Below, piece after piece: positions 27,845-55,937 of a stretch of DNA of 64,000 bases (the first letter of the stretch is position 1; each line of letters opens with the position of its first letter). The position numbers and the translations under genes are program-made. The stretch spans positions 822,454 to 886,453 of the forward strand of contig RPFO01000670.1 in assembly GCA_009746045.1 (NCBI GenBank), read 5' to 3'. A model generated the notes under the pieces. That model worked only from the letters and a program-made list of their open reading frames with translations. It searched no databases and was not told the origin of the DNA. The DNA comes from Mesostigma viride. Lineage: Eukaryota > Streptophyta > Mesostigmatophyceae > Mesostigmatales > Mesostigmataceae.

Positions 27845-28016
27845 CCAATCCTTTCTTTTCTTGAGCTGTAGCAGCTCACACAAGTCTACATACAAACACA
27901 CACAATGGGTACTGGACATCCTCCCCGACTACAAGTCACAACCCGCTGGGCATGACAGTCAGCTTGGATTCCTTATTATATGTACATAGCACCCATACTG
28001 GCTCAGGAGCACAAAC

Positions 28017-28897: not shown

Positions 28898-28902
28898 CAA
28901 AC

Positions 28903-30754: not shown

Positions 30755-31209
30755 AGTTAGATGAGATGCTTAGGCTGACACACGGATTTCCGGCCTGCGC
30801 GCCGCGTATTGCCTACCGCGGCTGAGCGGGACACCTCAGTACAGTACGGCAGGGTGTACGGTACTGAGGTGTCATGTGGACCGATGTGCGGTTAGTGCCA
30901 GACTGTTCCTAGGTGCTAGCTCGACCCGCCAGGTCCGGTGTAGCCGGGCCTGACGGGCCGAGTCTTAGTTGGTTGCTAGTGACGTGGTCGCATGGCATTG
31001 CAGTGTACAGTTGTCCACTGGTCGTGTGCTGCAGGTAGCACCGCCATAGGCATATAGGCGTAGCACTGGGGAGTGCCACAGCACCCGAGTCTGCCCAGTT
31101 CCATTCTGAGCCCTCAGCTTTCATCGCTCTCTCATTGTATTATTGTAATACAATCATCATTCGCTCTCAGCTTTCGCAGTTGTTCGTCGTCCCTAGTCTC
31201 CATCCAACT
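30755..31209 (+). repeat. 5' LTR of Copia D (455 bp)
   Basis: AGTTAGATGAGATGC to CTCCATCCAACT. It contains a self-complementary CACCTCAGTACAGTAC...GTACTGAGGTG element near 30,832-30,873. Identical to the 3' LTR. Confidence 0.95.
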
Positions 31210-31227
31210 TGGACTGAAAAGTTCGAT
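31210..31227 (+). promoter_or_regulatory. probable primer-binding site of Copia D
   Basis: TGGACTGAAAAGTTCG follows the 5' LTR directly. TGG pairs with a tRNA CCA end, as usual for a primer-binding site. The tRNA is not identified. C and E lack a TGG at this place and instead share ATTACA three to four bases after the LTR. Confidence 0.45.
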
Positions 31228-31252
31228 ATTTTTTTTAAGCAAAAAAAAAGAT

Positions 31253-32520
31253 ATGGCTTCCAACAACGGCAACAACGGCAACAACAACAAGGGGAAGGCG
31301 CCTGCCAGGCGCACCTCACCCCGCCTTTCGCCGGAGGGCACGCCCTCCACCACCGATGCGAGGGTGACGCCCAACGTCCCTTCCGCACGGTGGTCGCTGA
31401 CCAACCCAGGCGTCGGGGCCCGCAGGTGGGGCCCGGCGCCCGGGGGATGGCGAGCGGGCGGCCGTTTGCCACTGGCGGTTCGTCCGCCATGGCACCTGGG
31501 GGGCAGGTCCCCCGGGCACGACGTTCCCCCGTCGCAGGTGACGGGGGTCGTGAGCGGAGTGATTCCTCCGAGGAGGATGGCGAGGTGCCGCCTGCGAGGC
31601 CTCGGCCTTCGCTTGAGCTTTCGTCGCAGACACCTGCGACGTCTGGCAACCTTTCCGTGGGCCGACAGATGGCCACCATGGACATTGACCGGTATGGGGA
31701 ACATGTTCCGCCCCCGGTCATGTTCGGGCGCCCACCCCATTTTCTCCCCCTTGGGGAGGACGACATCCCGGCGTTCATTGCGGTGAACGGCCGGATCATG
31801 CTCAACGTTTTCAGTTGCTTCCAGATGAGGAGATACACGCGATAGAGGTTCATCGGGTGCACTCGCTGATCGAGGGGCGTCTTAGGATGCAGATCCCACT
31901 GGTTCAGGTGGCGGTTTGGCTGTACTGTTTCGCCAATCGGCCGAGGCACAACCCCGGCACTGTTGATCAGTGGGCGTCCAGGCAGCGCCAGAGAGAGGCG
32001 CTGCGCGTGGTCTCCAGACCAGAGATCGCGCTGACTCCGTTGCCAGCGTGGCCCCAAGTCACGCCAGTTGGCTGGGGCCCGGATAGGCGTGAGGCGGCTG
32101 CGATGCCGCCTGCGACGGGGCGCGGGGCGGCAGACGCCCCCAACACGCCCATGGGTGGTGAAGCCACCCAGGACCCTCTGGCAGGTCAGAGGGTCCAACC
32201 TCAGCCGCAGGCTCCCCCGCCCCGCGTGGGGGGCCAGGTGGCTGAGGAGGCCACCGGGGTCGCAGGGACCCCGGCGGCGACACAAGCGCCCGGGGTCGCA
32301 GGGACCCCGGCAGCGACGCCGGCGCCTCCGGCGCTGGCGGGGGATGCAGCCCCCATGGAGGGTGTCACGGGCACCTCCAGCGGCTCTGGGGGGCAGGCCC
32401 CCTCTAGCCGCAACAAGGACAAGTCCCTGGCAGGGCCGGAGGGGCCCAGGGTCCCACCGCAGCTGGGCAGCAACCAGCACTGCTGGAGGGCGACCTGCAA
32501 GGTCGCGACTTCATCACCCT
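31253..32520 (+). pseudogene. Copia D gag N-terminal / ORF0-like region, frameshifted
   Basis: The Met at 31,253 starts a basic, Asn/Gly-rich segment (MASNNGNNGNN). The coding signal then moves between frames near 31,440, 31,815 and 32,515. The middle part (DIDRYGEHVPPPVMFGRPPH and GEDDIPAFIAVNGRIMLNVF) is non-repetitive. The following part is rich in Ala/Pro/Gly with repeats of GVAGTPAAT. By position it corresponds to the separate ORF0 of elements C and E. No domain recognised. Breaks may be real or base-calling errors. Confidence 0.6.
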
Positions 32521-33927
32521 GGTGATGAGGCCGTGTGGCGTGCCATACAGACAGCCACAGCCTCCTTCCGTGGGCTGGCCGACAGGAGCCAGCAGATGCA
32601 CGTCGCGGAGGCGGGCAGCCTGGTGTGTGCAATCATCACGCACATCCTGGGCCTGCCCAACCTCCAAGAGGGCACACGTAGGGTGTGCGACGACCTGCTG
32701 CCTGCCCTGCAGGCTCTCCTCTCAGGGAGGAGGGTGCAGGGCAGCAGGGTGCGTCTGGTGCGTTTGCTGGAGCTCCTACACAACGCCATCCTGAGAGGGG
32801 CGGGTAGGTGGCTAACTCTGCCTACCTGGTTGCATCACAATCTTACTAACCCTACTGACGATGAAGTGTCCCTCTCTCCCACCTTCCATGATTGGGAGGA
32901 GGCCCGCAGCAGGAGGCGGGAAGTGACACACACTCACACCCCCAACCAGCCCACCCCTATGTTGTCTAACCCTCCTACACAGCCCATGTTTGCCCATCCT
33001 GCTCAGCTCACTCAAGTAGCACTTCCCTCTCAGCAGGTCTCTCCTGTGAATGCTGCAGCAGCAACACCATCTTCTCCCTCTCCCCCTGCATCCCCCTCTA
33101 GGTTGCCCACTTACAATGAAAACCGTCCTGTGGATAGGATTAATGTCAGGGGGCTGCCTGAGGGGTATACTAGGGAGCAGGGGAATCATGCACTTCTCTC
33201 TCTGCAGCTGGCTAGGGAGGAACTGAATGTCAAGAATTGGTTTGGATCTCTCATGCAGGGGGATTTCTACCATCAGTCCTCTTCTCAGATTCAGAATCTC
33301 ATTCTTGTCTTCCAGCGTAGGTATCCCAAGTGGCAGGACACGCAGGCTAGGGCAGTTTGGGAGGCTTTCATGAAGGAGCTAACTGACCTCCTCTCCACCC
33401 CCTCATCTGTGGACATCTATGGGGCATTCAGGTGGGTAGAGGAATACAGGGTCACATCAGTGGACTATGTGGCTGAGACAAAGAAATATGAGCTAGCCAT
33501 CAAAGCACGTCCTGATGTCCAGCAGCTAGATCACAAGTTCTTGCTGCGTTCCTTCCTTGAGAAACTCAAACTTGACAAAAACACCTACGCTATGCTTGCA
33601 ACAGGAATGGCAAAGTACTGGGAGGACATGAAGGAGGCATTGGATTATATCAAGCTGGCCTTGGCTCCCCTTAGCCAGGGGGCCATGGGCACCTCTGTAA
33701 AGAGGGTCAGGGGGGAAGAGAGGGAGGAGGAGGATAGGGAGAGGGAAGACAGGAGCAAGAGACCTGTCACTATGGCAGAAGTCAAGTCCCTGCTGGGACA
33801 AATGTTTAAGGGCAAGGGCAAGGGCAAGGGCAAGGGCAAGGGCAAGGGCAGGGGCTGGGGCAAGGGCAAGGGTAAGGGGCAGTCTCCCTCCAAGGGGGGC
33901 AGCTCCAGCAACAACAACAACAACAGT

Positions 33928-33981
<54 letters not shown>

Positions 33982-36324
33982 AACAACAACAACAACAAGA
34001 AGCAGGACAAGGAGGACAAGTCTTCTCAGCGGTGCACCCGCTGTGGCATGAAGTACCACCTGCGGCCCACCTGCCGCAAGAACGTGGACGAGCTGGGGCA
34101 TTTGGACGTCCTGTGCCACAAGTGCCACGGGCCGCCCCACGGTGACCCCAAGGACTGCAAGCGGCCTCCTTACGGCAAGAAGTGTGAGTCTCCCTCTCAT
34201 GCTGGCTTGAGTGTGCCTGCTTCACCTTCTTCTTCTGCATGCCCCACTGTCAGAGCAGTGAGCAGTTCTGGAAAGGTGCTACAGCTGGTTTCAGAAGATT
34301 ATGTCTCTAAACCAACCTTCACATCTATGGTTCCCAAGGTGTGCAGAGTGTCCCCAGCAGAGGATGCTCAGATCAGTTTTCAGGAGCTTGCTTTGCAGTT
34401 GCATTTCCTTTATGGGCATGAAGTGAGTGCAGAGGTGGTGGCAGCAGCAATAGGGGGGGCAGCACTCAGACGTGCATGCCAGGTGGTCAGATCCCACTGC
34501 CAGCATTGTCAGTTCAATGCACCCAAACCCCCTAAGTGGCATGTAGCTACCCCACCTAAGAGCAAGGGCAGGGTGGTAGGAGATGTCTTTCATATCAAAG
34601 GACAATCTTACTTGGCACTTAAAGATGCATGGTCAAGGTACACAACCATTGAACCATTACCTGGAATGGACAAGACACAGTTGCTCAGGGCTCTCTTGAT
34701 TGCTCAGGCCAGGTACTACCCTGTGGAGGCATTGTTACTGGATCAGCAGTTCACATGTCTTGCCAATGAACCAGGGTGTGAGGCTATTGATCTGGCTGGG
34801 CTAGAAGATCATGAGAGGCAAGGCATTATTGAAAGGGCCATCAGGTCCATTAAAACCCTTGTAGCCAAAGAAGATGGCAATCTGCTGGCTGACAGTGGGT
34901 CCTATGCTGACAGAGCTCTGTGGTCCACCAGGTTGTGCCAAGTCCTCAACAGGAGGCCACTCATGAAAACCCCACAAGGGGTGGTCATTACACCAGATGG
35001 ATTGCATGCAGGCATTTATCCACCTGAGGTACTAGCCCTCTACAACGCACAGCGAGCACAGACAGCTAGCAGGTTAGCTGTCAAGGATGCAAAGCATCCA
35101 CGTCCCACCTTCAGAGAAGGGGATCAGGTCCTATTCTACAAGGAGTCGGGACTAGGCAAGGTGGGTACCTGGCATGGGCCAGCCACCATCCTAAAGTTTA
35201 ACACCACTGGCAGGACAGTGTTAGTTAAACACAATGACACGGGAAAAATTCACAGGTGTTCACCTCACAGGATGAAATTGTATTTTCCAACTGTGTCAGA
35301 CGTGGCAGAGGAGGAAGAGCTGTTGGCCGACAGCCCTGTACAGTTGCCTGGCATCCCAGCGTTGCCCAGTGAGTGGTTGTTTGGAACACCCACTGGTGAG
35401 TGTGAGAGCCACACCCACTGTGACACCCAGGTCACCCTTGATGATTGCAGGCAGTCACTGCAGGATTGGCCCCCTGCAGCAGAGGGTCACATTGGCAAAA
35501 CAGGTGATCAGCAACCTATCACCTCTACAAGTGTGAACATAGCTCAGCCACTAGCTGCACCTTCCAAACGCAGCCTAGCAGACGCTGTTCGCATTTTACA
35601 AGCAGCTCATAGAGCCAAAGCTCAAACTGCTGCAGGATCAGCTAAGGTGGGGAAGGTTGGGCAGAATGACAATAGCCCATTTATGGTTGCAGTGGACACA
35701 CAAGCCCAGGTCAGCATTATCAGTGCCCTGGCTGTGCCCCATTTGCCTTTGGAACCTTCACCCTGGCACCATGTGGCTGATTTCTCAGGGCAGTCATCCC
35801 TCAAGGTATTAGGTCAGGTCATGTTGACTATACTCGGTATCCCCACTCCTTTTCAGGTCTTGGAAGGTTATAAAGGGAATGCTTTATTGGGGGATCCTTT
35901 TCTCTGTTACCCTGGTGTCCTCATATCCAGTGATAGACTATCCATCCAGGACATGGGTGGTGTTGATCTGAATCATTTCAAAATTTCTCTTGAAAAACTT
36001 CTTAACACCAACATTGCTTCTGTAAAATTTGCTACACCCAAGTATGCCCCAGGGCAAGAACCCTGTGTGGCAGACCTGGTTCACAACCAAAAACTTCATC
36101 CCAACTCATTTGGATTGGGCAAGCATGATGTGGCTAAAATGTCTCCTCTTTCTTATGAACAGATAGAGCAAGACTGTCGCACACACATAGGATTCCTAAA
36201 ATGGGTGGAGGCCTTTAACAAGGCCAGGGAAGAATGGGTAGTGCCAGATCCTCTTAGTCCTTCTCATACTCCCCTGTCACACCTATTGACAAAAAGCCTG
36301 CAGGGTGCAAGCACTTGCGCCTGA
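32521..36324 (+). CDS. Copia D gag - integrase - aspartic protease
   Basis: One open frame. Gag: helical capsid-like region, then Gly-Lys repeats (33,808-33,870) and about 30 Asn codons (33,910-33,998), then two knuckles CTRCGMKYHLRPTC and CHKCHGPPHGDPKDC (about 34,033-34,160). Integrase: H-x4-H (HFLYGH) and CQVVRSHCQHC zinc finger, core with GDVFHIKG, LLLDQQF and GIIERAI (D, D, E; D-x29-E), then an SH3-like domain (GDQVLFYKESG...). Protease downstream of the integrase: AVDTQAQVSII at about 35,689-35,721, LKVLGQV and LLGDPFL. The frame ends at 36,324, and RT continues in another frame after a break near 36,250. Nothing protease-like lies between the knuckles and the integrase. Confidence 0.88.
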
Positions 36325-37691
36325 AGTTTGTGTGTAAACATAAGCCAGCAGCAGATGGGTCAGTCATCTTTCATGCTAGACCTTGTGTGACAGAGTTCAA
36401 GGGCACCACTGATCTGACAGAGGCAGAGTTGTACACGCCAGGCATTCAGCAAACATCCCTAAAAATCTTGCTGTCTGTCTTTGTGGGTCATCTCAATGAT
36501 GGGGATGACTATATCTGTAAGGCTACAGACATTAAAAGGGCTTTCCTGAAAGGCTCACCTGAGATAGCACAACAAGTGTGGCATGGTCAGGTGTACGTAG
36601 TCTCCACTCCCAGAGTTTGGGCAAAACACATCCCTCAGCAGTACCTGAAAGCTAACATAGGTGTTGAAGGGCTGCAATCAGCTCCTCGCATTTTCAGGAT
36701 GTCAGCTCAGGCTGTGTTTGAAAAGTTAGGGGCTAGATATGATGACATAGACCCTTGCTTCTTTGTGGTCCCACACCCTCATGGCATTCTCACCTTTGTG
36801 TGGCATGGGGATGATCAGCTGATTGCTGGGCCAAGGCGTGCTGTGGATGATTTTATTCAACAAGTGTCACAGCATTTTGAGATTGGCAAGCAAGTAGAGC
36901 TGGGCACCACTGCCATAAAATTTTGTGGCACAATGTTACAACTCCAGCAGCATCAAAACCAGTGGGTGTGTGCACTCTACTCTCCCAATGATTACATGCA
37001 CAGCTGCTTGGAGGTTTTGCAAACAAAAATCAAACCTGGAGCCTGTCCTACCATTAGAGGCAAGCTGGGGTGGTTGTGCTCAACGTGTGCACCTCACCTG
37101 GCTGTGGTTAGCAGAGTTGATGATGATGTCTTGATGCAAGTAGGTCACAAAGCCATCACCAAAACTCTCCAGGAGGGCCCTCCCCTTATCTTGCACTCCT
37201 TGGATCTCCACAAAACCATTCACATCCAAGCTATGATGGATAGTTCCATGGAGTCCAGGCAGATTACCAAGTTGCAGGCAAGGGAGTCAGGCTTGTATTT
37301 TGTGCAGAATGATGATGCACCCTTGTCTCTCATTTCATGGTACAGCCGGTTGCATAGACGCAAGGCTGTCAGCAGCAATGCTGCTGAGTGCAGGGCAGTG
37401 GTGTCAGCAGTGCTTCATGCCAGGTACTTGAATCATGTGCTGGTTTGGTTGCAGATGCAAGCAGGCAGCAATGCTGGGGTGGTGGCACACTTGCTCACTG
37501 ACAGTCAGTCAGTCCTCAGTTTCCTTGCTAACCCCTATGCTGTGCACACTGATCTTGACTGGGTGGTCCTGAAACAGGAGTCCACCTACTGGGAGTCCAC
37601 CCGTCACGTGGAGGACAAACACAACGCTGCTGATGCACTCACTAAAGTGCCTCAGCAGGCAGCTGACAATACCAGCTGTTGTACCACTTGA
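36315..37691 (+). CDS. Copia D reverse transcriptase + RNase H
   Basis: 458 codons from the Met at 36,315; aligned coding extends upstream to about 36,250 in this frame, so this is the C-terminal part of pol after a single-base break. Motifs: TDIKRAFLKGS (catalytic Asp), GLQSAPRIF, DIDPCFF, FVWHGDDQLIAG (HGDD box), then RNase H with MMDSSMESRQ, NAAECRAV, LLTDSQSVL and NAADALTK. Domain complement is complete. D is more diverged from C and E than those two are from each other. Confidence 0.92.
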   Translation: MRLKFVCKHKPAADGSVIFHARPCVTEFKGTTDLTEAELYTPGIQQTSLKILLSVFVGHLNDGDDYICKATDIKRAFLKGSPEIAQQVWHGQVYVVSTPRVWAKHIPQQYLKANIGVEGLQSAPRIFRMSAQAVFEKLGARYDDIDPCFFVVPHPHGILTFVWHGDDQLIAGPRRAVDDFIQQVSQHFEIGKQVELGTTAIKFCGTMLQLQQHQNQWVCALYSPNDYMHSCLEVLQTKIKPGACPTIRGKLGWLCSTCAPHLAVVSRVDDDVLMQVGHKAITKTLQEGPPLILHSLDLHKTIHIQAMMDSSMESRQITKLQARESGLYFVQNDDAPLSLISWYSRLHRRKAVSSNAAECRAVVSAVLHARYLNHVLVWLQMQAGSNAGVVAHLLTDSQSVLSFLANPYAVHTDLDWVVLKQESTYWESTRHVEDKHNAADALTKVPQQAADNTSCCTT

Positions 37692-38804
37692 TGAACCCCT
37701 ATGGCAAGCAGGCAACCCTGCCCCATAGGGGGGACGCCTAGCAGGGTCCTGTTCACCAGGGCCGCCTAGGTCACCCAGTACCCCTTGGGCAGGTCCAAGG
37801 GGTAGGTTGTGGCTTCCAGCAGGGGGTTGGTTGGAGTCTGTTTTCATACATCTGCGTGCCCTATGCCCAATAAAATCTGTTTTGATTTTTTCAACACCAT
37901 GGAATTTCGTTATGCACACCTTCATAGGTGGGCATGGGATGTATCTCACACCTTTATTCACTAGGGCGTATGCCTTGGTGGATTGGCCTTGAGCTCAGTG
38001 GCTCAGGTGCCCCCATTCAAGTGGAGGGTCAAAGCTCCCTTGACAGGTGGTTACCCAGGACCCCAGTTCACTGTGGATATCCTGGGCCACCTGGCCTTAC
38101 TGTTCAGTGGCAGTAAAGGCATGGGTGCTGTCATGTTGTCTAGTACAACGTGCTCAGCACAGGTGCAGGATGAAATATTCCTGTCACCTGTCACCAGGAC
38201 TTCAGTCACCCATGTGCAGGGCAGGGGTGGCTGGTCTCACACGTTGTGCAGGTGCAATGTGGCCAGGTCCAGGATGTCATAGTCCTGTCACCTGTCACTC
38301 GGACTTCAGCCCCCTCTGTGCAGGGCAGGGGTGGCTGGTCCTCACATGTTGTGCAGGTACAACATGGACAGTGCAGGGTGCAATAAACCTGTCCACTGTC
38401 ACTCCTCAGGTTGCAGGTAACCTGAGCTCAGTTGACCCAGCCTGGCTGGATATTTTCTCTCTGAGTGGGCGATGATGATGGAACAACATGGAACCTCTTA
38501 AACGGTTACCTTGGCATTTTTTACAATGGCTTTCTTGGCTGGTGATGCACTCCCTGGATAGGCAGACAGGCATAGCTATCTCCCTTGTGAGCTCGCGAGG
38601 AGGAGGAACTCCCCGGGCATGTTGAGCTAAACGTGATGCCATCACAAGTACTGCACGAGTTCTGGGGCCCATCTTTTTCAGTCCAGATGTGGCAGTATGG
38701 GTGTCAGTTGCTCAGCACCTCAGTCAGCTTGGAGTCAGTCTCCTAGCTGGGCAGGGTCAGGCTTGAAGTCGCTAGCCTTCAACCTGAAAGGAAAACATAA
38801 TGGG
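37692..38804 (+). other. 3' UTR of Copia D with short tandem repeats
   Basis: AATAAA at about 37,869. From 38,090 to 38,400 a unit of about 104 bp (GCAGGGCAGGGGTGGCTGG at about 38,216 and 38,320, with CCTGTCACCTGTCAC) is repeated two to three times. A purine-rich GAAAGGAAAACATAATGGG precedes the 3' LTR and may be the polypurine tract. Confidence 0.7.
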
Positions 38805-39259
38805 AGTTAGATGAGATGCTTAGGCTGACACACGGATTTCCGGCCTGCGCGCCGCGTATTGCCTACCGCGGCTGAGCGGGACACCTCAGTACAGTACGGC
38901 AGGGTGTACGGTACTGAGGTGTCATGTGGACCGATGTGCGGTTAGTGCCAGACTGTTCCTAGGTGCTAGCTCGACCCGCCAGGTCCGGTGTAGCCGGGCC
39001 TGACGGGCCGAGTCTTAGTTGGTTGCTAGTGACGTGGTCGCATGGCATTGCAGTGTACAGTTGTCCACTGGTCGTGTGCTGCAGGTAGCACCGCCATAGG
39101 CATATAGGCGTAGCACTGGGGAGTGCCACAGCACCCGAGTCTGCCCAGTTCCATTCTGAGCCCTCAGCTTTCATCGCTCTCTCATTGTATTATTGTAATA
39201 CAATCATCATTCGCTCTCAGCTTTCGCAGTTGTTCGTCGTCCCTAGTCTCCATCCAACT
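38805..39259 (+). repeat. 3' LTR of Copia D (455 bp)
   Basis: No difference found against the 5' LTR over 455 bp. Followed by GTCGT, the target duplication. Confidence 0.95.
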
Positions 39260-41548
39260 GTCGTGTAGCATCCCTGGCGTGTATAGCTCCTCTCCTGGCA
39301 GACTCCCCGTGCCGTGATACTCATTCAGGACAGGCCTGACATGGGGCACTGATACCTCATCCACAACCTTCCTCTTCAGCACAAATCTCAAAGCAAGCTT
39401 CCTTGATGCTGGGGGACGTCTGTCTGTTGGTGCAGCACACTCAAACTGCAACCACTCCTCCAATGCCTTGGAGAAGGCGAGCTTCCAAGCCTCAAACAAA
39501 GTAGGCGAGCTCATCTCTTGGACCAGCTGGTCATATGTCAAAGGAGAGTGTGCAGCAAGGCTCCTGTGAGTTATGCCAATACTGCTGGGGTGCAACACAG
39601 CTGGAATCACCAAACTGGCCGCTGGGGGCACCTCCCCTTCATCCCATTTTACACCCTTGACCGGCTTGGCCCTGCACCTGACTGGAAATGTTGTCCTGAA
39701 ATTTTCTAGGGGAATCATCCCCCAGCCATCTCTTCTCAGAGCTGTAGCTCTGATAGAAATCCCAGGATTGCCCAGAAAATTCTGACCCAAAATCACAGGG
39801 CCATCATAGTCCTCTAGGACAAGGAAGGTCACATCCACACCCATGACAGGGGCAGTAACCTCTCCCAACACCCTTAGATGCGTCCTACCACTGAAATCAG
39901 ACACCCAGGGGCAACTTGGTTCTCCGACCAGCAGTTCTCCTGTATGCTGAGGTCCCATGACAGAAACCTGTGCATTGGTATCTATCTCCATGGCAGCTAC
40001 CTCAGGTTCATCCAACTGGACAAGCTTGGACACCTTAGGCTCCTTCTTGGCTCTTTGCAAAGCCTGTACAATATCTGATAGACGCACACCCCTAGGCCTG
40101 GTGTCGGGCCGTTCCGGAGGTGCAGCCTGTCCGCCTGCTTGCCCAACCACCGTATGTGAAGGTACCCCAGGGGCCGGGCCAGGGTCACCCTGAGGGCTCG
40201 ATACAGCTGTAGCACCCTGATCAGGAAGCTCCACGTCACCCCCGCCTTGTACACCAGCGGGCACCTGGAAGAGGTCTCCTTGATTACCTCCCCGGGGACG
40301 GATCTTTGACCAGGACAGACGGTGCACTGCTTGGGAACCATCAATGGCCACCCAGCACTTATGGCCAGCGGCTTCTACTCGGGTCACCACCCCATCATGC
40401 CAGCTGCCACGTTTCCCTGGAAAGCTTGGTTCCTTCCACACAACAACCTGTTGTCCAACGTTAGGCTCTAGGACACTCCAGCCCTTGTCTTTCTGCCTCA
40501 GCTTGAGGAACTTGGCCTCTAGCTTCTCCTTCCATGCCTGCTCAGCATCAGCTGGCAGCATCCTGGTATGCAGCATAAGAGGATTGATGGCAATGTCACC
40601 AAAGAACATGGGAGTCCTCAGGTTCAGCCTATCCTCCACAGAACGTAGCCATGCAGATGTCACAATGGCAGATGACGTCCTTGGAATCCTCTCCACCAGC
40701 AGCACAGTCTTGATCTCTTGGATGGCTCTCTCCACCACCCCTTGCTGGCCGTGGCTCTCCCTGGGTGTAATAAGCAACTCTGGAAACTCTGGCAGGTTCT
40801 CACAGCACTCAAACTGAATGTCACACTGCAACAACTCCAACCCACCAGGGTACCTGCTCCTTGTCAACTTCAGAGCAGCAATCAATGTAGGCTTCTCCAT
40901 GTCAGGCAGGATCTCTAGGGTCTTGTACTTGGTATATCTGTCCACTGCCACCAGCAGCTTCAAACCCCTGATTCTCTGAATATCTACCTGCACATGGCCT
41001 GGCTGCAAAATAGGAGTCCTGGCATGAGACTGCTTGGGCTTTCTAGCAACTAGCCTGCACTTGCAAGCTTGAGCAACCTGTTGGCAGATGGAGTACAACT
41101 CACTTCCTCCCAGCCGTCTAGCAACTTGCAAAGACTGAGCTGCATGGCCAAACATGGTATGCAACCTTGAGGCAATGTCATACAAGAGAGAAAACCTTTT
41201 ATTGTCATTATTAGCACTCAAGGTATGTACAGATCCCTTATGTACAGGAGGCACCAGGGTCGTGCCTGTCAGACTGTCTCCAGCCCTATCCTCATCCTGA
41301 CCATCCTGTGCCAGTCCTGCACGGTCAGAATGCTTCTGAGATCCACCTGGGTCCACATCACCAGGTCCTACCTCAGGCTCAGCACCGCCATGGCGGGCAC
41401 GTTGGCGAGTAACCACTGCAGCTACAGCTGGCATACTCTCTGTGGTAACCAAGCTTGCCCCATCGTGTCCAATAGGCTCTTTCACTAGAGCATGGGGCTG
41501 CCCCTCACTGCTGTCACTAGCAGCTTCATTACACACCCCTGGGGGCAC
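39260..41548 (-). CDS. Copia C pol, N-terminal part: integrase, protease, start of RT
   Basis: Read from a GTG at 41,548; the frame is open from about 41,578, and no upstream ATG is available. Zinc finger LHTMFGH (H-x4-H) and CQQVAQACKC; core QVDIQ, QCDIQF and GQQGVVERAI (D, D, E; D-x29-E); SH3-like domain VGQQVVVWKEPSFPGKRGSW. After the integrase comes the aspartic protease MEIDTNAQVSVMG (about 39,965-40,005), LRVLGEV and VILGQNFL, then the first part of RT (LRFVLKRK..., ELYTPGMLHD) up to the D insertion. Gag lies 35 bp upstream in another frame, so a shift or reinitiation is needed, or one base is wrong in the linker. Confidence 0.92.
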
Positions 41549-41583
41549 CCTCCAGGGTTCAGGGATGTGTGCAGCCGCTCAAG

Positions 41584-42771
41584 TCAATGATCAGCAGCCT
41601 TGCCCTTGCCCTTGTCCTGGGATGGACCAGCCTTGTCCTTGCTGCCACCCTGAGCTGGCTTGCTCTGACCTTCCTGCCTCAGGTACGAGGGACACTCATT
41701 CCTGAAGTGACCCTTCCCCTGGCAGAAATAACATTCCACCTGACTGATGTCCCGTGAGGTCCCACTGCTGGGCCCAGCCTTGGGAGGACCACCCACCCTC
41801 TTGAAGTCAAACTGGGACTGTGGATGTCCCGACTTCGGCGGGGTCCCCCGTCCAGCCCTTCTGTCACGCCCCCTCCTGGACCTTCCTCGACCCCTTGAAG
41901 AGGTCTCAGGCCCTCTCGAGGGCGCTGGGCCCCCGTGGCCCGATCCCCTCATGGACTTAACCGTGGGTTCAGCGGCCTCCTCATCACCCTGACGAGGGCG
42001 CTTACCACCCACGTACTTGCCGCTGAAACACTCATACAACTGGTCCGTCATGGCTGCCCAGCCATGGACCTGTCGCATGTGGATGGTCACATTATCCATG
42101 GTGACCGGATCCAGCTGCAGCGACTTGAGAAAGTCGCCCATGGCCATCCGATCTGCGACGAAGAAGCCCTTGGCCATGGCGTCCTCCCTCAGCTTGACGA
42201 AGTCTTCAAAGGCGTGGACCACTAGCTGCCCCTTGATGGGCTTGTAGTCCAGGTATTCTTGCTTCAGGTGGGACCCATCTATGGTCCTCTTGTCACTCAG
42301 GAACGACCTGAGTCGCGTCATAAACGCCGCCCAGGTGTCCCCCGCCGCGTGTCGCTCCCGAACAAACTTGAACAGCCGCCTCGCCGACTGCCTTATGTAG
42401 GCACTAGACGCCAGGATGCGAAGCTTGTCACCGTTGTATATCTCCGTGTACAAGTTCATGTCCTCTAACATCCTCTCAGCATCCCGGGGCTGCCAATTGT
42501 CCTTGATGGACTGAAACTGGCCTAGCACCGCGTACCCCTCAGCAACGGTTGGTCGCTTAGGCGCCGCTTGATCTGCGGCTGGCGCGTGCTGACCGCCCTG
42601 CGATCCTTGGCTCTGATTATCTGGCACCTCAGCCTGGTCTCCCAGCGCCTGGCCGTCCCCGCGTCCATCGAGTCCACCGCGTCCATCTCGTCCATCTCGT
42701 CCATCCAGCCCAGCGCCGCGCCGCGTGTAGCCCAGAAAACCCGCTTGTTGGTTGATAGCTCCATCCTCCAT
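41584..42771 (-). CDS. Copia C gag with CCHC zinc knuckle
   Basis: 395 residues. The N-terminal 65 residues hold a Gly/Asp/Arg repeat (DGRDGRDGR, coded by a 9-bp tandem). Residues about 95-260 are the helical UBN2/Copia-type gag core (DNWQPRDAERMLEDM, FMTRLRSFLSDKR). A basic RGRGRSRRGRD linker and one knuckle CYFCQGKGHFRNEC follow near the end. It packages element RNA. It stops at UGA (41,586-41,584) followed by CUU, a leaky-type context, as in element E. Confidence 0.92.
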   Translation of the reverse strand: MEDGAINQQAGFLGYTRRGAGLDGRDGRDGRGGLDGRGDGQALGDQAEVPDNQSQGSQGGQHAPAADQAAPKRPTVAEGYAVLGQFQSIKDNWQPRDAERMLEDMNLYTEIYNGDKLRILASSAYIRQSARRLFKFVRERHAAGDTWAAFMTRLRSFLSDKRTIDGSHLKQEYLDYKPIKGQLVVHAFEDFVKLREDAMAKGFFVADRMAMGDFLKSLQLDPVTMDNVTIHMRQVHGWAAMTDQLYECFSGKYVGGKRPRQGDEEAAEPTVKSMRGSGHGGPAPSRGPETSSRGRGRSRRGRDRRAGRGTPPKSGHPQSQFDFKRVGGPPKAGPSSGTSRDISQVECYFCQGKGHFRNECPSYLRQEGQSKPAQGGSKDKAGPSQDKGKGKAADH

Positions 42772-42838
42772 GATGGCCTCTGTTCAGATCTGCTACAGCC
42801 AGCCAAGTGGCCAAGCAGCAATTAAAGCAATATAAGCT

Positions 42839-42857
42839 ACTGAACAAGAAAGGAAAG
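42839..42857 (-). promoter_or_regulatory. candidate 3' splice site between ORF0 and gag of Copia C
   Basis: On the minus strand CTTTCCTTTCTTGTTCAG is a strong polypyrimidine-AG acceptor, 68 bases before the gag ATG. Element E has TTTTCTTCTGCAG at the same relative place (49,474-49,486). It may allow a spliced gag mRNA that skips ORF0. Confidence 0.4.
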
Positions 42858-42873
42858 TGCCAAGTGTTACCAC

Positions 42874-43794
42874 TCAGGCAAGACCACCACGGCTGGCCCC
42901 AGGCGCGTCCTGGTTCTCCTTGTCGCTGTCGTCGTCGCTGTCGCTCACCACAATCAGCTCTGGTACCCTGCTACCTGCTGCGCCGTCGTCGACCCGCTGT
43001 CGGCCCGCGATGACTGAATCGTCACCGTTGGTAAAGTAGACAGGTGACAACCCGTCGTGGGTCCCTCGCGGATTGTACGTTGGCACCTCGTGGTCGCCAA
43101 GTGTCTCGTCGCCTAGCCCAGCGACACCCCCTGCTCCTACCTCAAGGTCTCTATCGTACCCAAGAGGTGCAAACTCCTCCCAACGCGTCACACGAACGCG
43201 AAGGGGCGGGGGCAGCTCCTGAAAAGGAACTCTTACTCGCTCCGGAAACCTGCCGACTCTTGTCGCGCGCTGTCCTCCGGTGATGGCTTCCGCTGTCGCC
43301 CCGACCTCTGCAAGCCGCCTGTAGTGCTCCGCTCCGCGTCGTTCACGCCTAACTGGCCCCGCTGCAACACCCTCGTCGCCGATGCCGCCTGCGAAAGCAC
43401 GTGGTACTCCCGCGCCCGCTACTGTCGGTACAAACTCGTGTCGCCCTGCGCCAGCTGCTTCCGCAACCTCGCCTCGCCTTGCCGCCAACTCCGTCCGCAC
43501 TCGCTCAGCTACTGCTGTAATCACCGCCTGGATGCCGACCAACCCGTGAAGCTCCTGCTCGAGGTCGTCGATGCTCCGGTGCTCCGGAATGACGATGGTT
43601 TGTACGTGTCGCAGAATTCGCTCCCAATCTTCGACCTGGTCGTCGACGAATTGCACGAAGCTGCGATTTACAGGCGGACGATCTGCAAGCAATAAAGATA
43701 GATCCCGAACGACACGGCGTAATTCAGGAGAAATCGAACCCCCAGCAGACTGCCGAAACCGGAAATCCTGCTGCCGTTGTTCCTCCTGCACCAT
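42874..43794 (-). CDS. Copia C ORF0, extra ORF before gag, unknown function
   Basis: 306 residues between the 5' LTR and gag. Residues 20-115 look helical (DDQVEDWERILRHV, DDLEQELHGL). The middle is Ala/Gly/Arg-rich and the end is acidic (SDSDDDSDKEN). No known domain. Element E has an ORF of different sequence but like character in the same place, and D has an equivalent N-terminal extension. A separate frame upstream of gag is not part of the standard Copia plan. It is open over its full length in an element with nearly identical LTRs, which argues for use. Confidence 0.7.
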   Translation of the reverse strand: MVQEEQRQQDFRFRQSAGGSISPELRRVVRDLSLLLADRPPVNRSFVQFVDDQVEDWERILRHVQTIVIPEHRSIDDLEQELHGLVGIQAVITAVAERVRTELAARRGEVAEAAGAGRHEFVPTVAGAGVPRAFAGGIGDEGVAAGPVRRERRGAEHYRRLAEVGATAEAITGGQRATRVGRFPERVRVPFQELPPPLRVRVTRWEEFAPLGYDRDLEVGAGGVAGLGDETLGDHEVPTYNPRGTHDGLSPVYFTNGDDSVIAGRQRVDDGAAGSRVPELIVVSDSDDDSDKENQDAPGASRGGLA

Positions 43795-43887
43795 TCACCA
43801 CCGGACGAGCTCCTCTCGTCGTCAACGCTGCACACCGCAACCGGCAACGACCCTCCTGGCCGTTCCGCTGAGACTGATTGTAATTTG

Positions 43888-44586
43888 AGTTAAACGTTCT
43901 TCGCACACGCAATGTGAAGGATATGGTTGCAATGCAGCAATGTGTGAATATGGTTGGAAACGGAGCTTTGTTAAAATCGGATAATGTTTACAGCGCTCAC
44001 ACACTTGAGGCTTGTACACGCGCTTGCCAAGTCAAGGCACAACACGTGAGGCGGGCTCGCAAGAGAGATGCCCATTTGGCACTGGCCTATTGTTTATATA
44101 CTTGTGCACTGTGCTTGCTAGTCCTGAGCAGCCTAGGAGGCCTGCTCAGTAATAACACCCCGGTACAGTATTCACTACCTGTACAGCGCCCAACCCCTAT
44201 ACAGTAGGTCTGCCATACAGGCACAGTGACCACAGAGCACAGTCCACAGTGACTATTGCATCTGCACCTAGAAGTCCAGGACTAAGCCTGCGGTACCAAC
44301 AGACCACAGGTTAAGGTTCCTATTTCCTGCGTACGACGTATCAATCCAATACCGTCGTAGGTACAGCACCTAATTCCTGTCAGCCCAGGAATTACTGTCG
44401 ACCCCATATGTCGTCGGCAAATATTCACGTCCGACTTAGAAGAACAGCCGGCTCGCGCTCGCGCGCGACCGGGAAGTCGGAACGCCATAACTTTCTTGAT
44501 ACTTGTCGGAATGAACTCGTTCCGGTGCCGCTGGAATCGCAGAGATATGCCGAATCAGGATCATGCCAATGCGCTTGGCGTTAACT
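43888..44586 (-). repeat. 5' LTR of Copia C (699 bp)
   Basis: Same as 27,145-27,844 except one missing C at about 44,160. Followed on the plus strand by ACAAT, the target duplication. Confidence 0.93.
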
Positions 44587-48114: not shown

Positions 48115-48730
48115 AGTTAACGTAAAGGATTTACGTTAGATGGATAGAGATTGTTACGCTCTTTCCAACGGCACCTTGAACGCCTCATTTGGTTAAGGAA
48201 CGTAAAAGTTATGACGTTTCCTAGGCTGTGCCGACAGTACCCGGCGCGCCACTGTGGGCGCGTACGGACACAGGATGTACAAGTGTCACTTTGATAGTCC
48301 GCAGGACGTTGACAGGACTTGTACAGGACTTGATGGTCAATTGATAGGTAGGCGCACTGTAGCGCGCCAGGACCTATGAGACAATTGATGCTGACTAGTG
48401 TACGGATAGGTCCACAGGACTAGCCGTATGGACAATTGATAGATCTGCGCGCCAAAGGCGTGCCAGAGTCTGTGTAATCAATTGATTGACAGTTCAGCTG
48501 TGACAGTGCAGCTGAATACTTGGACGCGTCCCTAGTAAGCTATATGAGTGACTTGGTCACACCGGGACGCTAGTTCTTGCGTGCACGTTCTCTTGGCACT
48601 GCGACCCTGTCGTCTGTGCTGCGTGCAGTCTTGGAAGTGACGTGACTTACGTCTGTGTTTCCTGATTGTTAATAAAGGCAACTTCCTGCAAGAACCATGG
48701 CGGAATTCGTGGCATTCTTACCTCACAACT
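48115..48730 (+). repeat. 5' LTR of Copia E (616 bp)
   Basis: AGTTAACGTAAAGGATTTACG to TTACCTCACAACT. AATAAA at 48,671-48,676 and a conserved AAGAACCATGGCGG, an ATG in strong context, near the end; both are kept in the 94-bp mini LTR. The sequence downstream does not start with TGG, so the primer is unclear. Confidence 0.95.
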
Positions 48731-48754: not shown

Positions 48755-49237
48755 ATGCCAAATTCGGAAGAATTTCGGATTCCGGACGATGAGGAAATAG
48801 CCGCTCCGCCGGCTGGTTCTTCGTCAAGACCGACGGTGCCGTCGTGGCAGCAATTGCTCGACGAAGTAACGGTCTCGCTCGACGAGCTTCATCGTCAGCA
48901 GCGTGCAGCTCACGCATTGCTCGGGGATAACCCCGAGGACCCCGATTTGCCAGCACTGGTGCCGGCAATCCGCAACCTGTTGGACCAGATTCGAAACATT
49001 TTATCGACATTTACGGTCCAGGTGCGGGGAGGTTTGCGGTCGGTGACCGAAGTCACGACTGCCATTGAGGAGTTGGACAACGTCCTCTCTTCACTCACCG
49101 GTTACCAGAGAAACCTGCAAAACTGGGCATCGCTTCGCACGGGGGGCGCGCCGGCGGTGTCAACAAATTTGTTTCAGGATCTCGCGCTGTATCGCTGCTC
49201 ACTCGCGGCGTACGCAGTCGCGAGCGCCAGGTTTTAA
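48755..49237 (+). CDS. Copia E ORF0, extra ORF before gag, unknown function
   Basis: 160 residues from the first ATG 24 bp after the LTR. Acidic N-terminus (NSEEFRIPDDEEIA), then helices with heptad character (QLLDEVTVSLDELHRQQRAAH, in two parts; VTTAIEELDNVLSSL). A further open frame at 49,246-49,464 (72 codons) may continue it after a frameshift. No domain recognised. The second E copy begins the same ORF at 63,837 with silent-looking changes. Together with ORF0 of element C this suggests a conserved accessory protein, with helical character more than sequence shared. Confidence 0.7.
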   Translation: MPNSEEFRIPDDEEIAAPPAGSSSRPTVPSWQQLLDEVTVSLDELHRQQRAAHALLGDNPEDPDLPALVPAIRNLLDQIRNILSTFTVQVRGGLRSVTEVTTAIEELDNVLSSLTGYQRNLQNWASLRTGGAPAVSTNLFQDLALYRCSLAAYAVASARF

Positions 49238-49473: not shown

Positions 49474-49486
49474 TTTTCTTCTGCAG
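49474..49486 (+). promoter_or_regulatory. candidate 3' splice site before gag of Copia E
   Basis: CCTAATTTTCTTCTGCAG has a branch-like CTAAT, a pyrimidine run and AG, 148 bases before the gag ATG. It parallels the acceptor in element C at 42,839-42,857. Confidence 0.4.
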
Positions 49487-49634
49487 TACTCGTCGACATT
49501 TTTTTTGTCGAATTTTCAGCGGCAATTCGCGGGGCGGCAGCGACACCGGCGCAGGCGGCAGTGGCGACACAAAAATTTTGTACATATTTTCTGCTGCTTT
49601 GTTAAGGTGTTCTTTGAATAGCTGGTAGTGCAGG

Positions 49635-50746
49635 ATGGCTGAGGGACGCCGTAGCAAGGGTCCAGCCAGTGGGAATAATAATGGGGGTGCTGGTAGTGGA
49701 ACCGCTCACGTAGATGACGTGGGGCTTACCGGAGAGATTACCAACCTTCCTCACAATAATAATAATGCACAAGCTATTCATGGCTTTGATCTTACCACAC
49801 AGGGTCTTTTAATTGTCAATCAGTTGCAGCCTGTAACCTCAGACTCCAAGCCTAAGCAGGCTGAAGAGTTTGTGGAGGGATTGGAAGGGTTCCCTAGCTT
49901 GTACGGTGGTACAAATTACTATCAAATCTGGATAGGCAGTAGCACTTTTGGCAAGTGTACTGACCAGATTAAGGACCTAACCAGGGAGTGCAAAAAGGCC
50001 AATAAGGCCTGGGCACTGTACGTGGCTGAGCTGAAGGAGCTGCTGGAGGACCAGAAAGAAGTGGCATCCATTGGCAGGACAAGTACCAAGGGTGGGAGGT
50101 CAAGGGGGACCTGATCCAGAACTTTCTCAACTATTGTAAGATGGTTGAGGAGGGCAGGGCTCACGGCTTTAATGTCGCTGATAACATAGCCCTAACCAAC
50201 TGGCTCAAGGTTTCTGGGCTGGATAAGGCGACACGTGGCTCCTTAAAAGTCATGTGTGCCCCACACTCTACCCTGAAGGCCTACAAGGTCATCATTAAAC
50301 AAGCACTCGAGGCAGAGGAGCTGTTTGAGGGTGGAGTGCCAGCAGTGAAGGCTACCCAGGCAGGCGGGCGTACCCAGGGTGGCTCCAAGACGTCTGAGGC
50401 TGACCGAAGCCAAGGAGGGCGTAGGGGCAACCATCACAAGCGCAAGGGAGATCATTCACCTGATTCTGACAGGAGGTCACACTCCAAGTCGGTGTTCAGG
50501 CGGGTGGGTGGTCAGCCCAAGCAGGGCAACGCGTCTGACAATGGGGGCAGTGGCCAGGGCAAGTCCAAGATACAATGCTACCTGTGCAAGGGGTGGGGGC
50601 ACATCAAGAAGGAGTGTCCCAGCTTCAAGAAGTCCCAGGGCCAGGGCAGCAACAAGAATAACAACAACAACAAGAAGAACAACAACAAGTCCCAGGCAGG
50701 CCAGCCTTCAAAGGGCAGTCAGCAAGAAGACAACAAGGAGCAGTGA
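49635..50746 (+). CDS. Copia E gag with CCHC zinc knuckle, one frameshift
   Basis: Starts at ATG 49,635 after a T-rich leader. Residues 1-145 are in one frame; near 50,070 the coding signal shifts by one base (WHPLAGQ/WQDKYQGWEV region) and continues to the stop at 50,744-50,746. It holds the helical gag core (VEEGRAHGFNVADNIALTNW), basic Gly/Arg linkers, the knuckle CYLCKGWGHIKKEC (about 50,577-50,618) and an Asn/Lys-rich tail. The role is RNA binding and particle assembly. The break could be an error in the assembly, since the LTRs are near-identical. Confidence 0.88.
50744..50746 (+). other. UGA between gag and pol of Copia E, in frame
   Basis: The gag frame after CAG-UGA-CUG continues without another stop into pol up to 54,373. 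The first ATG of pol comes only at 50,888. UGA followed by CU is a context known to permit readthrough in several systems. This would give a gag-pol fusion in a minority of products, as retroelements need. Confidence 0.55.
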
Positions 50747-50887
50747 CTGTCTGAGGCAACCCCTACACACCTTAATTCACCCAAGGGGGAGGCCAGGTGC
50801 TCCAATGCAGATTTTATATCTGGGCAACAAGAGGGTGATCTCCAGGTTCAGTGTGGCCCCAGGTCACCTGGAGAGGTACAGGTTCCT

Positions 50888-53800
50888 ATGAAGACGTCCT
50901 TGACAGCTGATGCAGCTGTAAGTATGTCTGACCCTATGCATCCTCGTGCTGGGCACGAGGGTGGACCTCTCATTTTGAGAGAAACCAATGTACAACCACA
51001 GAGGGGTGTGAAGGCCTCTGGTGGTATGCATGTGGTCCCTGCTGGCGGTCCAGGTGTTGGGCATGAGCAGGGTGACTCAGGCTCTGAGTCAGAACAGGAT
51101 GGAAGTCAGCATGGTGATGCTGGACAACCTGACAGCACAGTCCTGACTGTGCCAGGGACTGCTTCCTCTGTGTACCAGGAGTTGGGTGCCCGAATCCACA
51201 ACATGTTTGGGCATGCCACTTCTCTGTCAAACAACTTTGCCTTCCGTATGGGCAGGGCACCCCTTCTTAAGGCGTGTCAGCAAGCTGCCTCACGGTGTAA
51301 GTGCCAGTTGTCCTCCAACAAGCCCAGGAAATCACATGCCAAAGCTCTACCTCAGAGCATTGGTGATCTGCAGTGTGATATCCAACACATCAGGGGCATG
51401 CAACTGTTGGTGTGCGTGGACAGGTACACGAAATACAAGGTGCTGGAGCATTTACCTTCTATGAAGAACAGGTACTTGCTGGCTGCCCTGCAGAATGTAA
51501 GAGCCAAGTTTCCTACCACAAGGATCCAGGTGGACATGCAGTTTCAGCATCTCAAGGGTGATCCTACCCTTCCTGAGTTGCTGGTTACACCTAGGGAGGC
51601 TCATGGGCAGCAGGGTGCTATCGAGAGGGCAATCCAGGAGGTCAAGAAATTGATCATCTCTGAAGACTGGGTACCCTTGTCTGCACCTGCACTTGTCAGG
51701 AGTGCATGGCTGAGGAACGTGGAGCAGCAGCTGAACAGCAGGGTTAACTTCTACTATGATGGAGTTGCTGTCAGCCCAATGGGTCTATATCATGGCCTGT
51801 GCCCACCACATGTGCTGGAGGGCTGGAAACATGCTGCACATGTCACCTTTGCCAAGCTGAGGGAGAAGGACCGGGGTTGGAAGATGCTGGAGCCACAAGT
51901 GGGTCAGAAGGTCCTAGCTTGGAAGGAACCTAGCCTTTATGGCAAACGTGGTAGCTGGAGTCCTGGGGTGGTTACCCAGGTTGATGAAGCTAGCCACGCA
52001 TGCTTGGTCAGCATGGAGGACGAACCAAAGCATGTACACCGGCTGAGTTGGTCATATGTCAAGCCTAACCTGATGAATGAGGGCAGTCAGGCACAAGGCT
52101 CACAGGATCTGCAGGATTTTCAGGTCCCAGGTGACATCACTGACGCAACGACCACATCTGTTGCAGGGGAATCTGTCAGCCCTGGCCAGGTTGCAGAGGT
52201 ACTTGTTGAACAGGCTGCAAGGTCAACAGCTGGGGAGTCAACTGTCAAGCCCAAGGCACTAACCAAGCCCAGGGGGACAAGTTTGGCTGGATTGATTGGG
52301 GCTCTACAAAGGGCCAAGAAGCAGCCCAAGGTAGCCAAGCTCAGGTGGCATGGCAATCTGGGGCTGGACACTGCCTTAGAGGTAGACACTAATTCTCAGG
52401 TCTCCATTATTGGGACCAGGGCTGCAGCAGGGTACAGCATGTCTGAACCCAGCTATCAGTTTGTGTCTGACTTCAGTGGCGGGGTACACGTGAAGGTACT
52501 GGGTGAGGTATTCATTCCTATCCTTGGACAGGACACTGCTTTTTGTGTCTTGGAGGGCTATCAAGGACCTGCTCTTCTGGGGCAGAATTTCCTATGCCAG
52601 GATGGGGTAGTGATCACGTCCTCTCTCCTGACTAAGGAAGGGGCTGGTCAGGTCCCACTGATTAATTTCAGGACCACTCACCTATCACGTGCAGTAACCA
52701 GGACGGTTAAGCGTGTGCAAGTGTGCCAGGGGCAGGAGCCCTTGGTTGATGACCTCATACTGCCAGCTGCTAGTCATCCAAGCAGTTTGGGCATTGGTCC
52801 TCACTCACTTGCTGGACACAGCCCTATCAACTACCAAGGCCTGGTGAAGCTCATGTCCTCTCCCATTATGTGTCCCCAGGTCACACTGGGTCTGATTAAA
52901 TCTGGGGAGGACTGGATCTCCAAGAAATGCGTGGAACCTGTCAATGACCTGCCTCCTGCACGACGTCTACTCAAGCTCAAGTTTGTCATCAAGATGAAGG
53001 AGGTGGACGGGGTCAAGGTACCACATGTCAGGCCAGTGCTGAATGAGTTCAAGGGTACTGGTGAGTGCACTGCTGAGGAGTTGTATACCCCTGGCATGCT
53101 GCATGATACTTGGAGGCTGCTGCTGTGTGTCTTTCTAGGCCTTCTCAACAAGGGCTTGGACTATGGCTCAGTGGTGATAGACTTCAAGAGGGCATTTCTG
53201 GAGGGTGATGCAGATGTGGCACAGGAAAAGTGGGAGGGCAAGACGCCTTTCTATGTTAGGGTGCCTGCTGTATGGAAAAGGGACATCCACACGGAGTTCC
53301 TTAAAATCCTCAAGGGCCTGGAGGGCCTGAGGTCAAGTCCAATAATCTGGAGGGAGACTCTCAACCGTTTCCTGAAGGAGCATTGCAACTTGAAGGTCTC
53401 TCCTGTAGACCCCTGTCTGTTTCTGGGGCAATGGGAAGGCCTGCCAGTGTATGCTTCGCTGCACGGGGATGACCTACATCTGATAGCTCCCACGTCGTGG
53501 CTTAAGGAGCTGATCTCCATCATTAAGTCCAAGTTTCCTCTGGGTAGGGAGCAATGGCAGGTGGAGAATGAGCCTCTGCTGTTTGTGGGCATGGAGGCCA
53601 CACTGGTGAAGAAGGGAGGGGAGTGGCGTATGCTGCTGGTGGGGGGCAATGACTATCAAGAGACCCTCATTAGCAAGCTTCCTCCAACCATCACACAGGC
53701 ACTGTGTCCCATGGTGAGGGGCATGGTTGCTTGGGTGGCAGGCATTTCCAGGCCAGACCTTATGGTCATAGCCAGGTTGCCTGATGACATGCTGGTGGAG

Positions 53801-54373
53801 CTAGGGTCTGCCAAGGTGGCTGATCAGGTCAGGGCTTCATCTGGCATTCTGTTGTCTGCAGTGGATTTATCACAACCCATTTGCATGGAGCTGTATGTGG
53901 ATAGCTCAATGGACAGCAGGCAGGTCTCCAAGGTCAGGGGCAGGGCTGCAGGGCTCTTTGTGCTCAGACAGGAAGGCCTGGGGAGTTTGGTGAGCTGGTT
54001 TAGTCGCCTGCACAAACGGGTGGCTGTCAGCAGTGATGTGGCAGAATGCAGGGCTATTTGTGAAGGCATTCACACAAGCCTTTATCTGAAGGAGTTGCTT
54101 CATCAGATGACTTCTAACACTCCTTGGCCACTTCAGGTTACCACTCTTCTAAAAACAGACTCCATGGGGATGGTGCAGTTTGTGCACAGGCAGATGGCCA
54201 GAAGTAGGGACTTGGATTATCTCCTTCTTAAGGAGTTGTCCTCCTTGGCCAATATTGAGCATATCCCTGGGGTTGACAATCCTGCTGATGCTTTGACCAA
54301 GCTAGTGCAGAAGGCAGCAGTGCAATACAAGGTTCTTCAGTCTCTGATGGACCCATCTCAGCAAGCTGTCTAA
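50888..54373 (+). CDS. Copia E pol: integrase - aspartic protease - RT - RNase H
   Basis: 1,161 residues from the first Met; open from 50,747. Integrase: H103-x4-H108 zinc finger with CQQAASRCKC (about 130-139), catalytic D164 (QCDIQ), D216 (QVDMQF) and E246 (GAIERAI), D-x29-E; SH3-like domain 338-393. Protease after it: EVDTNSQVSIIG (D500), HVKVLGEV, ALLGQNFL (562-569), a complete retropepsin half with N in place of G in the D-T-G box. RT about 690-900: VIDFKRAFLEG, GLEGLRSSPIIW, SPVDPCLF, SLHGDDLHL (D861, D862). RNase H 1000-1150: D1005, E1053, D1091, D1134. No second protease motif lies before the integrase. All active sites are present, so this copy may be competent. It works with gag in cytoplasmic particles, then in nuclear integration. 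Confidence 0.95.
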   Translation: MKTSLTADAAVSMSDPMHPRAGHEGGPLILRETNVQPQRGVKASGGMHVVPAGGPGVGHEQGDSGSESEQDGSQHGDAGQPDSTVLTVPGTASSVYQELGARIHNMFGHATSLSNNFAFRMGRAPLLKACQQAASRCKCQLSSNKPRKSHAKALPQSIGDLQCDIQHIRGMQLLVCVDRYTKYKVLEHLPSMKNRYLLAALQNVRAKFPTTRIQVDMQFQHLKGDPTLPELLVTPREAHGQQGAIERAIQEVKKLIISEDWVPLSAPALVRSAWLRNVEQQLNSRVNFYYDGVAVSPMGLYHGLCPPHVLEGWKHAAHVTFAKLREKDRGWKMLEPQVGQKVLAWKEPSLYGKRGSWSPGVVTQVDEASHACLVSMEDEPKHVHRLSWSYVKPNLMNEGSQAQGSQDLQDFQVPGDITDATTTSVAGESVSPGQVAEVLVEQAARSTAGESTVKPKALTKPRGTSLAGLIGALQRAKKQPKVAKLRWHGNLGLDTALEVDTNSQVSIIGTRAAAGYSMSEPSYQFVSDFSGGVHVKVLGEVFIPILGQDTAFCVLEGYQGPALLGQNFLCQDGVVITSSLLTKEGAGQVPLINFRTTHLSRAVTRTVKRVQVCQGQEPLVDDLILPAASHPSSLGIGPHSLAGHSPINYQGLVKLMSSPIMCPQVTLGLIKSGEDWISKKCVEPVNDLPPARRLLKLKFVIKMKEVDGVKVPHVRPVLNEFKGTGECTAEELYTPGMLHDTWRLLLCVFLGLLNKGLDYGSVVIDFKRAFLEGDADVAQEKWEGKTPFYVRVPAVWKRDIHTEFLKILKGLEGLRSSPIIWRETLNRFLKEHCNLKVSPVDPCLFLGQWEGLPVYASLHGDDLHLIAPTSWLKELISIIKSKFPLGREQWQVENEPLLFVGMEATLVKKGGEWRMLLVGGNDYQETLISKLPPTITQALCPMVRGMVAWVAGISRPDLMVIARLPDDMLVELGSAKVADQVRASSGILLSAVDLSQPICMELYVDSSMDSRQVSKVRGRAAGLFVLRQEGLGSLVSWFSRLHKRVAVSSDVAECRAICEGIHTSLYLKELLHQMTSNTPWPLQVTTLLKTDSMGMVQFVHRQMARSRDLDYLLLKELSSLANIEHIPGVDNPADALTKLVQKAAVQYKVLQSLMDPSQQAV

Positions 54374-55320: not shown

Positions 55321-55937
55321 AGTTAACGTAAAGGATTTACGTTAGATGGATAGAGATTGTTACGCTCTTTCCAACGGCACCTTGAACGCCTCATTTGGTT
55401 AAGGAACGTAAAAGTTATGACGTTTCCTAGGCTGTGCCGACAGTACCCGGCGCGCCACTGTGGGCGCGTACGGACACAGGATGTACAAGTGTCACTTTGA
55501 TAGTCCGCAGGACGTTGACAGGACTTGTACAGGACTTGATGGTCAATTGATAGGTAGGCGCACTGTAGCGCGCCAGGACCTATGAGACAATTGATGCTGA
55601 CTAGTGTACGGATAGGTCCACAGGACTAGCCGTATGGACAATTGATAGATCTGCGCGCCAAAGGCGTGCCAGAGTCTGTGTAATCAATTGATTGACAGTT
55701 CAGCTGTGACAGTGCAGCTGAATACTTGGACGCGTCCCTAGTAAGCTATATGAGTGACTTGGTCACACCGGGACGCTAGTTCTTGCGTGCACGTTCTCTT
55801 GGCACTGCGACCCTGTCGTCTGTGCTGCGTGCAGTCTTGGAAGTGACGTGACTTACGTCTGTGTTTCCTGATTGTTAATAAAGGCAACTTCCTGCAAGAA
55901 CCATGGCGGAATTCGTGGCATTCTTACCCTCACAACT
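55321..55937 (+). repeat. 3' LTR of Copia E (617 bp)
   Basis: One extra C (TTACCCTCAC) relative to the 5' LTR; otherwise the same. Followed by the duplication GTATA. Confidence 0.95.

Follow-up and report, generated by a model that had tools for sequence, protein, structure and literature searches.

The window, the whole 64,000-nucleotide stretch of DNA that was analysed, raises the question of whether LTR retrotransposons exist in which a retropepsin-like protease (PR) lies behind the integrase (IN) and directly before a Copia-type reverse transcriptase (RT). Domain order serves to distinguish LTR superfamilies, and the original prediction proposed for three elements (E, D and C) a Copia lineage with the protease moved, in the order Gag-IN-PR-RT-RNase H (RH). 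Our reading, to which we assign a probability of roughly 85%, is that E, C and D, together with a further genomic family (D2) and one ENA protein (P0001), constitute one deep LTR retrotransposon lineage with Copia-type RT-RH and a Gag-IN-PR-RT-RH polyprotein.

Element E (48115-55937) is an LTR retrotransposon whose LTRs are 99.4% identical over the aligned stretch. Its features, all on the forward strand, are:

48115..48730, forward: 5' LTR (AGTT...AACT), preceded by the target site duplication GTATA at 48110-48114
48755..49237, forward: ORF0 of about 160 aa, without a Pfam match above the cut-off
49635..50746, forward: gag, its frame interrupted in the window copy
50744..50746, forward: gag stop TGA, which shares the frame of pol in all 31 copies
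50747..54373, forward: pol frame including the stop codon; 1208 aa when counted from the codon that follows the gag TGA, 1161 aa from the ATG at 50888
51185..52066, forward: IN, with HHCC, a D,D,E core (second spacing 29) and an SH3-like C-terminal part
52304..52678, forward: retropepsin-like domain, DTN at 52385
52943..53536, forward: RT core (RVT_2), HGDD at 53462
53885..54307, forward: RH, approximate limits from alignment to Copia RT-RH
55321..55937, forward: 3' LTR, followed by the target site duplication GTATA at 55938-55942

The pol coding region (50747-54370, then TAA) specifies IN, PR, RVT_2 RT and RH in that order. The HHCC motif occupies residues 103-139 and the D,D,E triad residues 164, 216 and 246, while the PR carries D500 in VDTNSQVSIIG and LLGQNFL at 563, and the RT has HGDD at 859. 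The 1208-aa frame was present in 40 of 40 among the matches listed (100% identity, rounded), and all 30 loci fetched were 99.4-99.9% identical to the window copy over the long match, reflecting recent amplification. An open gag frame of 373 aa including the CCHC knuckle is present in 12 of 31 copies, which do not include that of the window. Gag and Pol are separated by a single in-frame UGA in the context CAG UGA CUG. This arrangement suggests, from its sequence, translation by read-through; the context is identical in 31 of 31 copies, but these are recent and their agreement is therefore not independent evidence. No RNA structure beyond that of shuffled sequences was found 3' of the UGA (z 0.79). 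E is inserted beside what appears by eye to be a Gypsy integrase fragment with a chromodomain-like end (46598-48060, reverse strand).

Element D is nested in element C on the opposite strand, and their features are:

30755..39259, forward: element D, identical LTRs at 30755-31209 and 38805-39259, target site duplication GTCGT
34390..35280, forward: D IN, approximate limits, IN motifs from 34399
35623..35991, forward: D retropepsin-like domain, DTQ at 35695 and LLGDPFL at 35884
36315..37691, forward: D RT-RH, frame separated in the window copy
27145..44586, reverse: element C, interrupted by D, LTRs at 27145-27844 and 43888-44586, target site duplication ACAAT
41584..42771, reverse: C gag with CCHC knuckle
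40295..41164, reverse: C IN
39686..40060, reverse: C retropepsin-like domain, DTN codon at 39982
39265..39403, reverse: N-terminal part of C RT, ahead of the D insertion
29478..30737, reverse: rest of C RT-RH, on the far side of the D insertion

All three window elements have LTR ends AGTT...AACT rather than TG...CA, and all are flanked by 5-bp target duplications. The order IN-PR-RT-RH of C was read from the two pieces split by D, and in the window copy its gag stop is out of register with the pol frame. In two D copies (L036 and L037) the gag knuckle, IN, PR, RT and RH lie in one frame of 1505 and 1507 aa, respectively. Counting the window copy, 92 scored rows contain the D RT at 99-100% identity; frames of at least 1386 aa were present in 12 of these, one of which, at 18,754 aa, is odd. 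By count, 54 of the 92 rows have an RT frame of 494 aa, in which IN and PR would not fit; with copies 99-100% identical, this looks like the amplification of non-autonomous copies or of a frameshift. An ORF0 also lies upstream of gag in C (42874-43794, 306 aa, no Pfam match over the cut-off), and L037 has an open frame at a place similar to that of ORF0 in E and C.

A protein search with E recovered P0001 alone among the matches listed; with the D RT-RH, P0002 to P0004 were among the matches listed, and with the D IN-PR segment there was no relative among them. The fourth genomic family, D2, was reached through P0002. Its RH is carried by 30 rows, and the copy L038 encodes IN (4-286), PR (407-528) and RT (629-1101) in one 1105-aa frame. 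P0001 (ENA, 1214 aa) is the fifth member, 51% identical to E, with IN-PR-RT-RH in one uninterrupted frame; we treat it as an outside protein and do not count it as independent of the host genome. Scans of viral contigs and of genome contigs found no relatives. The two beta-glucosidases returned for P0001 by phmmer against the PDB (E 1.2-1.3) were rejected as chance matches.

The motif positions predicted for E, C and D were confirmed when re-read in the window, and motifs and Pfam together support the order Gag-IN-PR-RT-RH in each. The three families of the original prediction have grown to four in the genome plus P0001. A three-frame scan of the three elements with the pattern [hydrophobic]D[TS]G[ASCG] found no D[TS]G motif between the gag knuckle and IN in E, D or C. 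The six hits comprised four in the LTRs of E or D, one at 43004, upstream of C gag and out of frame, and one at 34888, within the D IN past the catalytic Glu. A PR profile built from E, C, D and P0001 was run on six-frame ORFs of at least 40 aa from the window and six loci. Below E 1 it matched only the five expected frames, those of the three source families in the window and of two D copies (E 1.9e-65 to 4.9e-58), and the next match had E 3.4. This profile is blind to Copia-type PRs, a type covered by the Pfam scans, in which no family matched the stretch between the gag stop and IN and Pol_BBD had no match in E, C, D, L036 or P0001. No protease was thus found upstream of IN by motif, profile or Pfam, in agreement with the original prediction. 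Pfam scanning of the host Copia elements L031, L033 and L034 revealed Pol_BBD, gag_pre-integrs, rve, SH3_retrovirus and RVT_2 in the conventional order, and L031 was the only one of the three to match a gag family; L032, outside this Pfam control, has the usual order by eye. Since host Copia elements show the textbook order, both the method and the genome are able to reveal an upstream PR.

The segment between IN and RT has the retropepsin fold in its predicted structure. Five models came from a 4-row alignment; the one used scored best, with a mean pLDDT of 67 against 50-53 for the others, and all 50 of the PDB matches listed by Foldseek were retropepsins, 6 of 432 matches having E of 0.001 or less. 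The PR profile searched against PDB sequences at E up to 10 gave five matches, each to a DDI1 or ASPRV1 retropepsin (E 0.24-0.78). Its nearest profiles are gag-asp_proteas and DDI1/ASPRV1; gag-asp_proteas matched three of four PRs at E 0.086-0.19 and that of E not at all, and no single PR passed the Pfam cut-off. The LLGxxF motif of the PR is the form seen in gypsy elements, retroviruses and DDI1. A motif arising by chance, or a copy that has been rearranged, would fit the Pfam matches to PR and IN, which are all sub-threshold, but is rejected as highly improbable given the fold matches, the four genomic families, the many near-identical copies and the one outside protein.

The PR departs from D-[ST]-G in its active-site triplet, which is DTN in E, C and P0001 and DTQ in D and D2; the third-position Gly, near-universal in retropepsins to our knowledge, is missing in five of five families. 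This replacement would be expected if the domain were a pseudoprotease, its fold retained so that Gag-Pol can dimerise, and cleavage left to a host enzyme or to the protease of another element. Such a role is unlikely, because the motif Asp and Thr are among the 29 of 135 PR columns invariant in the five families, host Copia elements also deviate at the same position (DSA in L031-L033; DTG in L034), and PR is conserved better than IN in both pairs compared. Between E and C, identity is 54% in PR, 50% in IN and 29% in the linker between them (no RT value, as the E RT could not be delimited there). Between D and D2 it is 63% in PR, 53% in IN, 29.5% in the IN-PR linker and 72% in RT; the PR-RT stretch, at 56%, may be more than linker. 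Because synonymous sites are close to saturated, these identities are compared in place of a formal dN/dS test, and by them PR is no less conserved than IN. We favour a PR that is probably catalytic with DTN or DTQ; a working protease of this kind would be a naturally occurring variation on a well-studied active site.

An active PR would act in the following way. Genomic RNA would be translated into Gag and into Gag-Pol, by read-through of the in-frame UGA in E or as a fused frame in D. Once Gag-Pol is packed in particles, two PR copies would pair as a retropepsin dimer, which would cut at putative sites on both flanks of itself and so free IN upstream and RT-RH downstream. The cDNA would then be made and inserted with 5-bp target duplications.

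The assignment to a Copia lineage stood for RT-RH. RVT_2 matched E at 3.9e-6 (27.1 bits, below the curated cut-off of 31.6), D at 2e-8, over the cut-off, and P0001 weakly at 0.014. In hhalign, the RT-RH profile aligned with that of four host Copia sequences over 417 columns at E 6e-14, and at 9e-21 with P0003 added. In the RT tree, the five families form one clade (100/100) separate from host Copia, P0003 and P0004, with an exact place that is unsure because long branches meet (program warning). The trees and domain profiles do not include L035 (L031 family, truncated frame) or L037, and the RT trees do not include P0002; D2 is in the second tree and missing from the first. With all five families in one RT clade, a single origin of the domain order is simpler than three.

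The assignment did not extend to IN and PR, which lack Copia-specific Pfam matches. The IN has HHCC and D,D,E residues in a predicted integrase fold, as in a DDE integrase. SH3_retrovirus and Pol_BBD gave no match up to E 1 in E, C and D, up to E 0.5 in the L036 D frame, or up to E 10 in three PR segments and whole P0001, scans in which HMMER filters drop most matches above about E 0.1. Both models matched in all three host Copia controls scanned; gag_pre-integrs had no match in the IN of the new elements and matched three host Copia elements. With neither PR nor IN significantly similar to host Copia by hhalign, the name Copia is secured for RT-RH only.

One history that would account for this, and to which we give a little less than an even chance, is that an ancestor lost its Copia PR and acquired a different retropepsin between IN and RT, and possibly a different IN as well, to become a chimera with Copia RT-RH. 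The PR resembles gag-asp_proteas and DDI1/ASPRV1 and not Pol_BBD, the family that the PRs of three host Copia elements match at E 2e-9 to 4e-15; hhalign detected no similarity between the PR profile and host Copia PRs (E 0.36; 0.13 against P0004), and Pfam finds no SH3_retrovirus in IN. However, with alignments of so little depth (template Neff about 2), lost similarity may be mere divergence, and the IN profile, at E 0.51 against host Copia and 0.24 against P0004, reached 0.0013 against the Copia IN of P0003. Copia-like elements can also have a PR of this sort, as P0004 (Copia-type RT, usual order) shows with the LLGxxxL protease read in it by eye. Loss plus gain of PR is as likely as a move; of the protease said to have moved, the order itself is upheld and the move as such is not.

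With Ty1/Copia (Pseudoviridae) the new elements share RVT_2-type RT and RH, IN before RT, a gag with CCHC knuckle and the 5-bp duplication. They differ in that PR follows IN, the order PR-IN-RT-RH being found in none of E, C, D, D2 and P0001, in that their PR and IN do not match Copia-specific Pfam models, and in having AGTT...AACT in place of TG...CA. Gmr1-like elements still have PR before IN, and their RT is Gypsy-type. Gmr1 is described as a Gypsy lineage with Copia-like integrase order, in which IN precedes RT; like the new elements, it departs from the domain order of its superfamily (PMC2774666). Ty3/Gypsy, BEL and Troyka resemble the new elements in a retropepsin directly before RT, but have IN last where it is first here (PMC12440569). 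The families that share this third arrangement of IN and PR are about 33-51% identical to E, and its persistence among them means that PR need not follow Gag. The ENA protein P0004 (1850 aa) shares a divergent RVT_2 RT and, by eye, a retrovirus-like IN C-terminus (MLVIN_C E 0.19, below the cut-off); it differs in its PR-IN-RT order, read by eye, and lies outside the new clade on a long branch whose place is unsure.

Our literature searches, with Repbase and most subscription journals outside their scope, found no paper on the order Gag-IN-PR-RT-RH among the titles listed, and the word "copia" is absent from the main texts of two genome papers, one of them PMC6947507. The REXdb plant survey required TG/CA ends and removed unexpected domain orders as likely mispredictions (PMC6317226), and elements like these would have been lost through such filters. 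It is possible, and we propose it only tentatively, that the elements represent an undescribed deep lineage with its own pol architecture, Copia-type RT-RH joined to a non-Copia IN and retropepsin, still jumping with a D-T-N or D-T-Q active site.

The window also holds non-LTR reverse transcriptase ORFs at 1478-5398 and 58319-62666, with RING-like and C2H2-like motifs by eye. The gene at G000:C557:4257032-4262234 matches P0002 at only 75-98% per stretch. P0002 bears the EukProt label Mesvir1, which we read as Mesostigma viride and from which Mesostigma is the probable host of the elements, and on this divergence the two Mesostigma strains may be different species.
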